Below are positions 16,005-36,330 of a stretch of DNA of 59,770 nucleotides, piece after piece. Origin of the DNA: an uncultured Deferribacterales bacterium (GTDB lineage Bacteria > Chrysiogenota > Deferribacteres > Deferribacterales > Mucispirillaceae); NCBI GenBank assembly GCA_947853665.1, contig CANTXF010000068.1, positions 1-59,770 on the forward strand, written 5' to 3'. Below the pieces are notes generated by a model. The model ran no database searches, had not been told where the DNA came from, and saw only the letters and a list, made by a program, of their open reading frames with translations. The number at the start of each line of letters is the position of its first letter. Position 1 is the stretch's first letter. Position numbers and translations under genes: made by a program.

Positions 16005-16493
16005 TTGAACAAGTTTTATTTCCGGCTTCTGGCGCTGTTCTTCATATATATATGCGCGGTGAATATATGCTCCTTCGCGGCGGGCTTCGACCCCAGGCAG
16101 CTTATAAACCCTTTCTATCTTAAAGAAAGGACGGAAGCCTCCGCCTATCTGTTAAAAAATATAATTCTTTTCACAGGCGTAAATATAAAGCTCGTTCCGG
16201 AGGAAGAGCTGGAAAGCATAATCGTTTCCGCCGCGGAAGAGTACGGGATAGACGAAAATATACTGCGCTCCGTAACCGTCAGGGAAAACGAGTTTTCCAT
16301 ATCCGCAAAAGGAGGCATGGGCCTTACCTTTATAAGCCCGGAGGAATTCCGCCTGTCCGGCTACGGGGACCCTTTCATACCGGAAGACAACGTCCGGGCG
16401 GCTGCCAGCGCGATTAAAAGGCTTGCGGGAAAAACCCCGGGGGAAGAAAGCCCAAAAGAGCCTTTTTACGGCCAGAAAAACCATGCTATCTGA
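16005..16493 (+). CDS. lytic-transglycosylase-like (SLT) exported protein
   Basis: The 162-residue protein begins with a hydrophobic signal or anchor segment (LLALFFIYICAVNICSFAAG) and then has a compact SLT-like region: AAEEYGIDENILRSVTVRENEF, GGMGLTFISPEEF, and DNVRAAASAIKRLAG. This matches the order of a soluble lytic transglycosylase core, with a glutamate in the ENEF position that aligns with the catalytic ES-F. It is shorter than typical domains, so activity on peptidoglycan is uncertain. The start is TTG at 16005; no in-frame ATG gives a complete signal peptide. Its 3' end overlaps mqnB by 11 bases. Confidence 0.68.
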   Translation: MNKFYFRLLALFFIYICAVNICSFAAGFDPRQLINPFYLKERTEASAYLLKNIILFTGVNIKLVPEEELESIIVSAAEEYGIDENILRSVTVRENEFSISAKGGMGLTFISPEEFRLSGYGDPFIPEDNVRAAASAIKRLAGKTPGEESPKEPFYGQKNHAI

Positions 16494-17118
16494 ATACGCA
16501 ACGGTTCTTTTCGTGCCGACCGCAAAAGAGCTTTCAAAAATATTCGGCATCCGGGAAACCGCCCGGGAAAAAGGTTTCGAATACGCTTTTTTTAAAAATA
16601 CCCCCGTTGTGCTGACCGGCATAGGAAAAACAAACGCGGCTATTACGGCCTCCGCCTTTTTCGGAACATACCGCCCGGAGAAAGCGATTTTAACCGGTAT
16701 ATGCGGGGCTTACAGAGCCTCCGGTCTGAAAATCGGCGAAACGGTGTCCGTAGTGGAGGATAATTTTGCGGACGAAGGCTCTTACGACGGCTTCCGCCTT
16801 GTAAGCCTGGCGGAGAAAGGAATGCCTTTATGGGAAGGCGGCGCCGTTCCTTTCGCGCCGCTGGATGGTTTTTTCAATGCCGTATCCAATACGGTGTCCC
16901 TTCTCCCGGCAGAAAACGGGCTGTCAGAAATATACAGGGCAAAAACCGGAGCCCATGTGGAAAATATGGAGGGAGCCTCTTTCGGACTGGCCGCGGTAAA
17001 AGCGGGGATACGGGCATTTCAGCTTAGGGCCGTGTCCAACTACTGCGGCGCCATGCCGGAATGGAACATAGCCTCCGCCTCCTCCGCCCTGCGCCTTGCG
17101 GTGGAATCCATCCTTTAA
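16483..17118 (+). CDS. mqnB: futalosine hydrolase
   Basis: The 211-residue protein belongs to the nucleoside phosphorylase fold and matches MqnB, which splits futalosine to dehypoxanthine futalosine in the alternative menaquinone pathway. Seen: VPTAKELSKIFG, LTGIGKTNAAITAS, ILTGICGAYRASGL, HVENMEGASFGLAA and the RAVSNYCGAMPEWNIA end segment. It overlaps the SLT-like gene by 11 bases, so the two are co-transcribed. The presence of this step supports a menaquinone-based anaerobic respiratory chain, which fits the periplasmic cytochromes nearby. Confidence 0.88.
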   Translation: MLSEYATVLFVPTAKELSKIFGIRETAREKGFEYAFFKNTPVVLTGIGKTNAAITASAFFGTYRPEKAILTGICGAYRASGLKIGETVSVVEDNFADEGSYDGFRLVSLAEKGMPLWEGGAVPFAPLDGFFNAVSNTVSLLPAENGLSEIYRAKTGAHVENMEGASFGLAAVKAGIRAFQLRAVSNYCGAMPEWNIASASSALRLAVESIL

Positions 17119-17147
17119 AAAACCGGAAGGCCGCCCGTATGAACAAG

Positions 17148-17420
17148 AACGGAACGCGCAATATCTATCGCGCGTCGTTTTGGACAAGCTCGGATTAGAA
17201 AAACGGGAGCGGGCTTATCTGTTCCCGCTCGTTTTCTGTTCACCAACGTCTGCACTGGTAAAGCAAACGTTTTCTGTCCATCAAAACGGGACGCGCACTT
17301 CCCTGCCCGTTGTTTTACGGCAAGCTCTAATCGAAAAAGCGAGAGCCGCCATAACTAGTGCGCCTCGCTTTTTATCCACAAACATCCGCGCTAAATAAAG
17401 CGGCCGTTTTACGGAAGGCC
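17148..17420. repeat. array of short hairpins with conserved linkers (array 1)
   Basis: The 416-base gap between mqnB and the convergent YihY gene (17119-17534) has no gene. It holds about six hairpins of roughly 25-35 bases set every 40-50 bases. Examples are AACGgaACGCGC/GCGCGTCGTT (17148-17179), AACGGGAGCGGG/CCCGCTCGTT (about 17202-17233), AACGTCTGC/GCAAACGTT (17245-17271) and AAGCGAG/CTCGCTT (17337-17370). Stems differ but the linkers recur: ACAAGCTCGGATTAGAAA (also GCAAGCTCTAATCGAAA) and TTTTCTGTCCATCAA or variants. The same linkers and one same stem occur in a second array at 35401-35800. Function unknown. Confidence 0.85.
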
Positions 17421-17534: not shown

Positions 17535-18869
17535 CTATTCCTGAGTTTTTTTGTTTACGTCCATATGGGCCAGATAGGAATCCAGCACAGTCTGAGGCAG
17601 CCTGGGGTCAAGGGCGGCCGCCCTTTCGTAAAAGCTCTTGGGTATTTCAAGAAAAACTGAATCTTTCACGGCTTCCGCCGTACGGTCGTAGACGGTTTTG
17701 GCGAGGACTCCGCTTTCCCCGAAAGTTTCGCCGGGAAAAATATCCGCGACGGTGTCCGGGCCGCTGTCGTTTTTTCTCACGGTTTTAACTTCGCCGGAGG
17801 AAAGTATATAAAAAGCCTCCGCCGGATCCCCCTGGCCGAATATTATTTCACCCGTCCTTACCGACCTGCTGAACCGGGAAACGGCCGCGTCCGGCCGCCT
17901 GAAAAGCATATTTTCTATAAAATCGCCCTTTCCTTTGGACACGGCGGTATAATAAACGTCGAATTCAAGCTCAGGAAACATATGCTGTACATATACGAAC
18001 TGGGCGAACAGATAAAAAAGCGCAAAAAGCACATAAACCCAGAAAAGCCCGACTATAAGGGTGCTTATCACGCCGTAAACAAGATAATAGCTTGCTATGG
18101 AAATAACTCCGTAAAGTCCTTTCTGAACGATAACGGCGGAGATGGTAAAGAGCACCGCCCCCGAAACCGCGTCCGTGCTGCTGGGCCTTCTTGAAGGCAG
18201 GAACCTGTAAAGGCAGAAGGTTATTACGAATATCATTATAACGGTAATTATATTGGTATATGTATCCAGAGCGGAGGAGCCTGCGAAATAGGGAACGCCG
18301 AATTTTTCAAACACGTCCGCAAGCCGCCTTACCACTATCCCGGCCGCGAAAAAGGTTATGCAGGCCACGAACACAAGCGGAACGAATATAAGCGAAATAA
18401 GGCTGTCCGTAAGGAAACTGCGTTTTGAGCCGTTGCTGAATATAAGCTCGAAAGCGCTGCGTATTCCGCTGAAAACGGAGCGGGAACTCCATATAAGCCC
18501 CACTATGCCGATAATGCCGAAAAAGCTCTTCCTGTCGCTGTTCAAAAGGCCTATCTGCTCGAAAAAATCCTTGCTTATCTGGGGATTGAACTGCGTAAGC
18601 AGGTTAAAGAAATAATCGGACAGTTTCCCGTAACCGGCAAGGCCCACGTCCAAAACGTAAACGACGAGCAGAGCCATTGGTATTATGGAAAGAAAAAAAT
18701 AGAAAGCCCCCGAAGCGGCCAGGTCGAGAAGCCCTTTTGACGAAAAAAGACTTACCGAAAGGTAAATTTTGCGCAAAAGTATCAGAGGATAAAACGATTT
18801 GATCACCTCTATCGGCTCTATATCGGATTCCTGCGCTCCGTCGTCCTTAAATGCTCCTCTGTCCGTCAT
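17535..18869 (-). CDS. YihY/BrkB-family membrane protein fused to a cyclic-nucleotide-binding domain
   Basis: The 444-residue protein has two parts. Residues about 30-310 form a six-helix YihY/BrkB domain (AASGAFYFFLSIIPMALL, IVGLIWSSRSVFSGIRSAF, YRFLPSRRPS, LIVGLFWVYVLFALFYLFAQFVYV). Residues about 335-430 form a cNMP-binding-like beta roll (VRTGEIIFGQGDPAEAFYIL then SSGEVKTV, and FPGETFGESGVL then DRTAEAVKDS). The roll has FGESGVL but lacks the arginine of the usual phosphate-binding RTA box immediately after it; an RTA occurs in DRTAEAV, so nucleotide binding is plausible. YihY function is unsettled despite the old RNase BN name. It is a single-gene unit on the minus strand, convergent with mqnB across a hairpin array. 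Confidence 0.85.
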   Translation of the reverse strand: MTDRGAFKDDGAQESDIEPIEVIKSFYPLILLRKIYLSVSLFSSKGLLDLAASGAFYFFLSIIPMALLVVYVLDVGLAGYGKLSDYFFNLLTQFNPQISKDFFEQIGLLNSDRKSFFGIIGIVGLIWSSRSVFSGIRSAFELIFSNGSKRSFLTDSLISLIFVPLVFVACITFFAAGIVVRRLADVFEKFGVPYFAGSSALDTYTNIITVIMIFVITFCLYRFLPSRRPSSTDAVSGAVLFTISAVIVQKGLYGVISIASYYLVYGVISTLIVGLFWVYVLFALFYLFAQFVYVQHMFPELEFDVYYTAVSKGKGDFIENMLFRRPDAAVSRFSRSVRTGEIIFGQGDPAEAFYILSSGEVKTVRKNDSGPDTVADIFPGETFGESGVLAKTVYDRTAEAVKDSVFLEIPKSFYERAAALDPRLPQTVLDSYLAHMDVNKKTQE

Positions 18870-35400: not shown

Positions 35401-35800
35401 AACGGGAGGCGCATAATCTGTCGCGCCTCGTTTCGGAGCAAGCCCAGAACAGAAAAGCGGGAGCCGCCTAAAATAATGCGGCTCGCTTTCTATCCACCAA
35501 AGCGGGACGCGCAATACTTGTCGCGCGTCCTTGAGAGCAAGCTCGGAACAGAAACGTCTGCACTAATAAAGCAGACGTTTTCTGTCTACCAACATTCGCA
35601 TTAAATGAGGCGAATGTTTGACAGCAAGCTCGGATTAGAAACATTCGCATTAAATGAGGGAATGTTTTCCGTCCATCAATATCCGCATCAATAAGGCAAG
35701 TATTTTAGAGCAAGTTTGGTTCAGAAACGTCTGCACCAAATAAAGCAGACGTTTTCTATCCGCCAAGGCCCGCATTGGCTAAGCGGCGAAAGCTTTTTTT
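35401..35800. repeat. array of short hairpins with conserved linkers (array 2)
   Basis: Eight or nine hairpins follow one another. Examples: AACGGGAGGCGC/GCGCCTCGTT (35401-35432), AAGCGGGAGCCGC/GCGGCTCGCTT (about 35454-35491), GGACGCGC/GCGCGTCC (35503-35530), AAACGTCTGC/GCAGACGTTT (35552-35580), CATTCGC/GCGAATG (35593-35616) and a second AAACGTCTGC pair (35725-35753). One linker, AGCAAGCTCGGAACAGAAA or close variants, recurs at 35437, 35536, 35623 and 35709 (spacing 99, 87, 86). The other, TTTTCTGTCYAYCAA, sits on the opposite side of the stems and its start is complementary to the end of the first (ACAGAAAA), so stems extend into linkers. Array 1 at 17148-17420 has the same design. Confidence 0.88.
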
Positions 35801-36330
35801 TATAATAAAGCGGCTTGTGCCCGGTAATAAAAAATCTTATCCGAAGCGTTCGGCAAGTCGCTGTCTGAAGGGAGCTTTTGCCCCATGAGTTTGAATTGAC
35901 GCGCAGGAAAAGATCCTTTATGTATTAACGTCATTCAAACTATATTGAAAAAATCCCTGCGCCCTATTCAACCCATGCATTAATAAAGCGGCGAAACTAA
36001 CCCCCGCCCCGGCACACCGGAGGATTCGCCTCAAAGAGCCAATTTAGAGAGCTTTAGGCTTCTCTGTCGCCGCAGCAATTCTCTATTTTACAAATATTTT
36101 CCACGACGTTACGATAACCCTTATAAGACTATCGCCAGCATGTTTTAATATATGTTTTCAGAATAAGCGGATGCCCGTAAACGCGTCTTTCTTTGTATTA
36201 TAAGGACACAAAAGACGCCATAAGCAAAAACCGTACCTTGCAATACATAAATTATAAGCGGCAAATATGAAACGGATTATGAGACTATACAAAAATGATT
36301 GATATGACAATAGTTTTATTTATGTTTTAT
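35801..36330. other. non-coding region with structured elements between the Sel1 genes and the ATP synthase operon
   Basis: No credible gene lies in 35229-36385 on either strand. Besides array 2, this part holds two interlocked inverted repeats (35888-35962, see findings), a further degenerate repeat unit near 35972-35998 (GCATTAATAAAGCGGCGAAA, akin to 35773-35792), and a hairpin with arms GCGTCTTT (36183-36190) and AAAGACGC (36211-36218). The 35229-35400 part is AT-rich and likely holds the promoter of the Sel1 genes, but I cannot pick one out. Confidence 0.6.

Follow-up and report, generated by a model that had tools for sequence, protein, structure and literature searches.

IS200/IS605 elements end in a single bulged hairpin, insert 3' of a short motif and have a 3' end resembling this target motif. 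The attC sites of integrons are bulged hairpins of variable sequence that are recognised by their structure and occur in arrays.

REP, BIME and REPIN elements, which are moved by RAYT (TnpA-REP), an HUH enzyme of the Y1 type, are palindromic units of 20-45 bp that are present in about a hundred copies and lie between genes, with several subtypes of stem and loop in each genome and occasional copies inside genes (PMC3733652, PMC8266576). In REPs of E. coli the bulge matters: contacts with the tag and with the bulge are specific, those with the upper stem structural (PMC8266576). A survey of tagged REPs found head-to-tail pairs to be absent or rare, and negligible in the CGTC families. The latter, including dRS3 of Neisseria and RPE-4 and RPE-6 of Rickettsia, are defined by a terminal unpaired CGTC, a stem of 8-9 bp, a loop of 4-5 nt and a CCA-like tail; they have no dedicated transposase, form large clusters in some species and insert in frame into genes, and the spread of such palindromic repeats is an open question (PMC3733652).

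Here we describe a hairpin array (array 1) within a window of 59,770 nucleotides, the whole stretch of DNA analysed, from an uncultured Deferribacterales bacterium. Judged from its sequence, array 1 is probably a cluster, in part decayed, formed by a small palindromic mobile element that is non-autonomous, resembles REP elements and Rickettsia palindromic elements (RPEs) and would be recognised via the shape of its hairpins.

Layout of array 1

Array 1 (17148-17406) consists of six hairpins, four long and two short, with the sequence long-long-short occurring twice in succession; all its parts are given on the + strand. Long hairpin 1 (17148-17179, AACGGAACGCGC...GCGCGTCGTT) is of the GACGCGC type with one mismatch and scores 41.9 bits with the covariance model of the long hairpin. 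It is followed by a linker L1 (17180-17201, TTGGACAAGCTCGGATTAGAAA) and by long hairpin 2 (17202-17233), which has the GAGCGGG allele and a GG bulge and scores 59.9 bits. A linker L2 (17234-17246, TTCTGTTCACCAA) leads to short hairpin 1 (17247-17269, CGTCTGC...GCAAACG, 42.1 bits with the short model), and a further L2 (17270-17284, TTTTCTGTCCATCAA) to long hairpin 3 (17285-17314), which is degenerate and falls below the threshold of the long-hairpin model. These three linkers were assigned as linker matches. The remaining parts are degenerate as well: a linker L1 (17315-17337), long hairpin 4 of the GAGCCGC type (17338-17369, 32.9 bits), a linker L2 (17370-17382, TTTTATCCACAAA) and short hairpin 2 (17383-17406), where both linkers and the short hairpin were assigned by sequence. 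As the long-model scores and the hairpin at 17285 missed by the model show, array 1 is partly decayed.

The array is located between two convergent genes, which encode a PNP_UDP_1 (phosphorylase superfamily) protein (16423-17118, + strand) and a membrane protein of the BrkB/YihY family that has a cNMP-binding domain (17535-18869, - strand). Everything that the preliminary description had listed for the locus, namely hairpins, two recurring linkers, convergent flanking genes and a left-arm insert that stays unpaired, is present. At up to three mismatches the linker CGTTTTCTGTCCATCAA has 7 matches in the window, with 0.10 expected, and the linker ACAAGCTCGGATTAGAAA has 3, with 0.07 expected. Folded as DNA, array 1 is better than all of 200 dinucleotide shuffles (z -2.9); folded as RNA, one of 200 shuffles is as good (z -2.5). 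A second array of the same hairpin family (array 2, 35401-35766, + strand) contains three long and then five short hairpins with L1 and L2 linkers.

A dispersed hairpin family

The genome carrying the window (2.43 Mb in 68 contigs, 97% complete) was searched with array 1 as a DNA query and with covariance models. The DNA query yielded 78 matches dispersed over many contigs. The long-hairpin model gave 96 matches and the short-hairpin model 63, about 7 of which are one place counted on both strands, so that about 60 short copies remain. Array 1 is one among roughly forty mosaic clusters of a dispersed hairpin family. The array counts are lower bounds because the hairpin repeats broke the assembly: ends of contigs C13, C20, C27, C29, C39, C43, C44, C50, C53, C54, C59 and C67 (G000) fall within hairpin arrays.

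Neighbouring units are arranged head-to-tail in 65 of 69 pairs and the linker lengths are fixed: 13 nt for L2 (TTCTRTCCACCAA), about 23 nt for L1 (TTTAGAGCAAGCTCGGAACAGAAA) and 28 nt for L3 (TTCTGAACACGGAGCGAAGCGGAGCAAA), a rarer third type which recurs between long units (L034, L038 and L048, corresponding to C21, C29 and C50 of G000). There is also a bias in order across the arrays, with long before short in 23 cases and short before long in 7. Segments cut out by the linkers alone, without using pairing, are nearly all hairpins and fall into two sizes.

Long hairpins measure 32 nt and follow the pattern AAC-GG-GANNNNN...NNNNNTC-GTT; short hairpins measure 23-24 nt and have no bulge. In the long unit a 3-bp foot (AAC/GTT, AGC/GCT or ATC/GAT) is followed by a bulge of two bases, GG, which is confined to the left arm, and by a 7-bp stem that begins with GA and ends with TC, closed by a loop of mostly 10 nt. 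The insert had initially been given as GG(G/A)A; it does lie unpaired on the left arm, but the unpaired part is GG, between the foot and the stem beginning with GA. Around five stem alleles are common (GAGCGGG, GACGCGC, GAGCCGC, GAGGCGC and GATGCGC). Each tends to come with a particular loop; which foot a unit has is largely independent of its stem allele. The loop noted earlier as similar to NTATCTGTY is found in most alleles as a TATCTGT-type loop, but not in the GAGCCGC allele, in which it reads CTCAAATAAT or CATAATTAAT. In most long alleles the loop reads TTTGT, which is ACAAA on the opposite strand. Together with the tail TTCTRTCCACCAA the 32-nt hairpin makes up a full long unit of 45 bp, with the conserved 3' tail CTRTCCACCAA.

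The same genome contains another dispersed family, with some 16-20 copies of about 200-260 bp and long terminal inverted repeats (GGCGGCTATCCCCTAACGCAGATAGTTATGGAAAATATTTATAATA). It folds strongly in its core and has a TATAAT-like box, is private to this genome as well, and in one version ends in short-hairpin halves and adjoins hairpin arrays. Example sites are 35766-36000 in the window, L042:12575-12860, L033:957-1178 and L044:5113 and 5445. When larger elements bounded by half hairpins were considered, no convincing parent of the long unit was found.

Compensatory change in the stems

In 63 distinct long units 97% of the pair cells are standard pairs. Double-changed cells amount to 117 in these long units compared to 40.7 +/- 8.9 in shuffles, with far lower values in slid controls, and to 27 compared to 10.1 +/- 3.2 in the short units, both unit sets having been picked partly by pairing. 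For this reason a set of units defined by linkers only was tested separately. In this set the two arms of a long unit pair at 9.33 of 10 positions, compared to 7.31 with arms of other units, and those of a short unit at 6.47 of 7 positions compared to 5.87; none of 2000 arm permutations reached the observed pairing sum.

Compensatory change is thus real, and it takes the form of a handful of stem alleles, not of free or continuous drift. The number of independent compensatory events is far smaller than that of double-changed cells, which partly reflect the common ancestry of few alleles. A lack of excess compensatory change, named beforehand as an outcome that would speak against the preliminary description, was not observed. 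Its view of stems varying from unit to unit while pairing is kept holds with regard to pairing; the variation itself comes down to the common alleles named above.

Evidence for movement

Six long units lie within the loops of other long units, and in each of the six cases the host hairpin becomes intact again once exactly 45 nt are cut out. The hosts belong to several alleles; the inserts are always of the GAGCCGC allele, always inverted and always at the identical loop position. GAGCCGC is likely a recently mobile allele.

Copies were also found within genes. A ketopantoate reductase (PanE/ApbA) fused to a NUDIX domain (L043:3841-5283, G000:C39) carries 38 extra in-frame residues that correspond to two complete hairpin units plus fragments and sit just after the dinucleotide-binding motif, before the next strand; 11 relatives do not have the insert. 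One in-frame hairpin unit is located in a TPR protein (L037:4081-6213, G000:C27), between two copies of long internal acidic duplications, and the C-terminal end of a DUF2612 protein falls in a hairpin unit. Within arrays, adjacent long units have an allele in common in 1 of 14 pairs (3.0 expected) and are identical in none, so that arrays look assembled from dispersed units and not duplicated. Pairing is not what distinguishes array 1, one of many clusters of a dispersed mobile repeat; it seems to belong to the unit that moves.

The family could alternatively be a classical MITE, with a DDE transposon as its source, of which only the terminal inverted repeats and a short target duplication would be seen. 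The inverted repeats are near-perfect, and in four of the six nested insertions the five bases to the left of the insert are the same as those with which its tail ends (ACAAA in three cases, ATAAA in one); a further MITE-like family with long inverted repeats, the one of 200-260 bp, is present in the genome. However, the hairpin unit is just 40-45 bp long and has a conserved tail on one side, isolated units show no clear matching duplication, and the inverted repeat is interrupted by a GG bulge that is itself conserved. We consider this origin unlikely.

Genomic context of the arrays

We surveyed the context of the arrays using simple longest-frame calls as genes. Arrays are mostly intergenic, lie in either orientation and are flanked by convergent, divergent or co-directional genes, which led us to reject a terminator or leader role and agrees with the earlier remark that the element is not an obvious leader. 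We scanned 30 proteins encoded next to arrays or on contigs rich in them. All that could be identified belong to the usual chromosomal complement, among them DAHP synthase, argininosuccinate lyase, penicillin-binding proteins, UvrB and a Clp ATPase, and no candidate mobiliser was found among the 30.

Compensatory change and folding above chance would also fit if the arrays were transcribed as multi-hairpin small RNAs or acted at the 3' ends of genes as terminators or stabilisers, with pairing kept for the sake of the RNA structure. The position of array 1 between convergent genes would fit such a role, and in other organisms REP elements can function within transcripts (PMC3733652). The variety of gene arrangements and orientations is at odds with it, as are the nested copies and the copies within genes. 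No Rfam family matched above the gathering score, at array 1 nothing resembles a promoter and the terminator-like sites are all weak, and folding is, if anything, a stronger signal for DNA than for RNA. A role in host RNA is therefore improbable in our view. The selection for RNA or single-stranded DNA structure suggested at the outset is supported as selection for pairing by shuffles, slid controls and permutations, but neither a host RNA function of array 1 nor a host function of the arrays is indicated.

Search for a mobilising enzyme

A relation to integron attC sites, or to a similar tyrosine-recombinase system in which an integrase recombines bulged hairpins as single strands, is suggested by a functional resemblance: the foot AAC/GTT, the extrahelical bases, variable stems with pairing kept and the serial arrays. 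The core motifs do not agree, as the flanks AGAAAAC/GTTTTCT do not match RYYYAAC/GTTRRRY and the foot is AGC/GCT in 34 of 82 units. Moreover, the hairpins have no cassettes between them. The integron integrase model TIGR02249 found nothing above cut-off; there were sub-threshold generic recombinases only, on other contigs far from the arrays. We regard such a relation as very improbable. An origin from a decayed gene, the second outcome named beforehand as speaking against the preliminary description, or by tandem duplication can be dismissed: the 100-codon frame that spans array 1 (17096-17398) has no Pfam match even at E 1, the long unit happens to be stop-free in most frames, and units are dispersed over many contigs with neighbours that are not duplicates of one another.

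Searches with PF01797 (Y1_Tnp) and NF047646 (RAYT) gave no match in the genome of array 1, whereas control genomes were positive; the enzyme gene may sit in an assembly gap, where it could be bounded by hairpin repeats. Some relatives carry Y1 genes. A search for Y2 transposases carries no weight, since its control genomes gave no match.

A trans-acting enzyme most likely recognises the unit as single-stranded DNA. Hairpin units follow a C-A-A-A-like stretch, two A's of which were part of the filter in one of two surveys. A unit may insert after such a stretch, and its end CACCAA would then be a fresh target for the next insertion, leading to head-to-tail growth at fixed spacing. The sequence ACAAA on the opposite strand of most long-allele loops would likewise lead to inverted insertion inside loops. 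The enzyme would recognise the folded single strand, reading foot, GG bulge and tail by sequence, and the upper stem would need only to pair. Such recognition of shape would allow stems to diverge into alleles by compensatory change while linkers stay conserved.

A more far-reaching reading, which we put forward tentatively and consider rather doubtful, is that the hairpins form a separate class of element without a Y1 enzyme. This class would find its targets in its own copies, at their single-stranded loops and tails, build head-to-tail mosaic arrays and diversify its stem alleles by compensatory change, as its recombinase would read the shape and the GG bulge, not the stem sequence.

With exact empty sites in its own loops and a defined 45-bp unit, the family offers clean material on how palindromic repeats spread without a dedicated transposase. 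Natural compensatory stem variants show which bases matter, and one gene took up the element in frame. The insertion mechanism is thereby testable in vitro with short oligonucleotides.

Distribution in other genomes

Among 45 other genomes of the order the long-hairpin model found no convincing match, only marginal ones with E about 0.01, and a DNA search of 14 other genomes in the bacterial family showed the hairpin family to be absent. The exact core pattern was absent in 84,980 species and in viral contigs, and array 2 as a query had no match in phage and plasmid records, all in collections from which the own or very near records were possibly left out. A phage or plasmid origin is rejected for lack of matches among the phages, plasmids and viral contigs of these collections. 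Among the species searched, the hairpin family was found only in its own. In other members of the bacterial family the neighbouring protein of array 1 is only 36-49% identical, and the spacer with array 1 could therefore not be aligned with relatives for an empty-site comparison.

Comparison with known systems

With IS200/IS605 elements the family shares the single bulged hairpin, insertion 3' of a short motif and a target-like 3' end; it differs from them in that no Y1 transposase gene was found and no pair of left and right ends surrounds a gene.

A short palindrome of 20-40 bp in high copy number and mostly between genes characterises REPs, and the 32-nt hairpin with its 96 model matches is of this kind. 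It is similar to REP, BIME and REPIN elements in unit size, copy number, stem and loop subtypes and occasional copies in genes (PMC3733652, PMC8266576), and its GG bulge recalls the bulge of E. coli REPs (PMC8266576). In contrast to GTAG REPs, the hairpin has no GTAG tag at its foot, its unpaired bases being a GG within the stem, the 5' flank is C-A-A-A-like, and neither a RAYT nor another Y1 gene was found in the genome. BIMEs and REPINs are inverted pairs, whereas the neighbours here are almost always head-to-tail (65 of 69). The conserved 3' tail CTRTCCACCAA and insertion into its own loops further set the family apart from REPs.

CGTC-tagged REPs are comparable in lacking a dedicated transposase, in their large clusters and in their in-frame gene insertions (PMC3733652), but the hairpins described here have no CGTC tag and combine a 7-bp stem and a foot with a GG bulge and a loop of about 10 nt. 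RPEs are palindromic, dispersed and kept in frame within coding genes, as are some of our units; they are 100-150 bp long (PMC3767692), compared to a mostly intergenic unit of 45 bp. Because it has neither a GTAG nor a CGTC tag, forms head-to-tail arrays and lies in a genome in which no REP-type Y1 transposase was detected, the hairpin family is not a proven member of the known REP families and is best filed as a species-restricted variant of transposase-orphan palindromic repeats.
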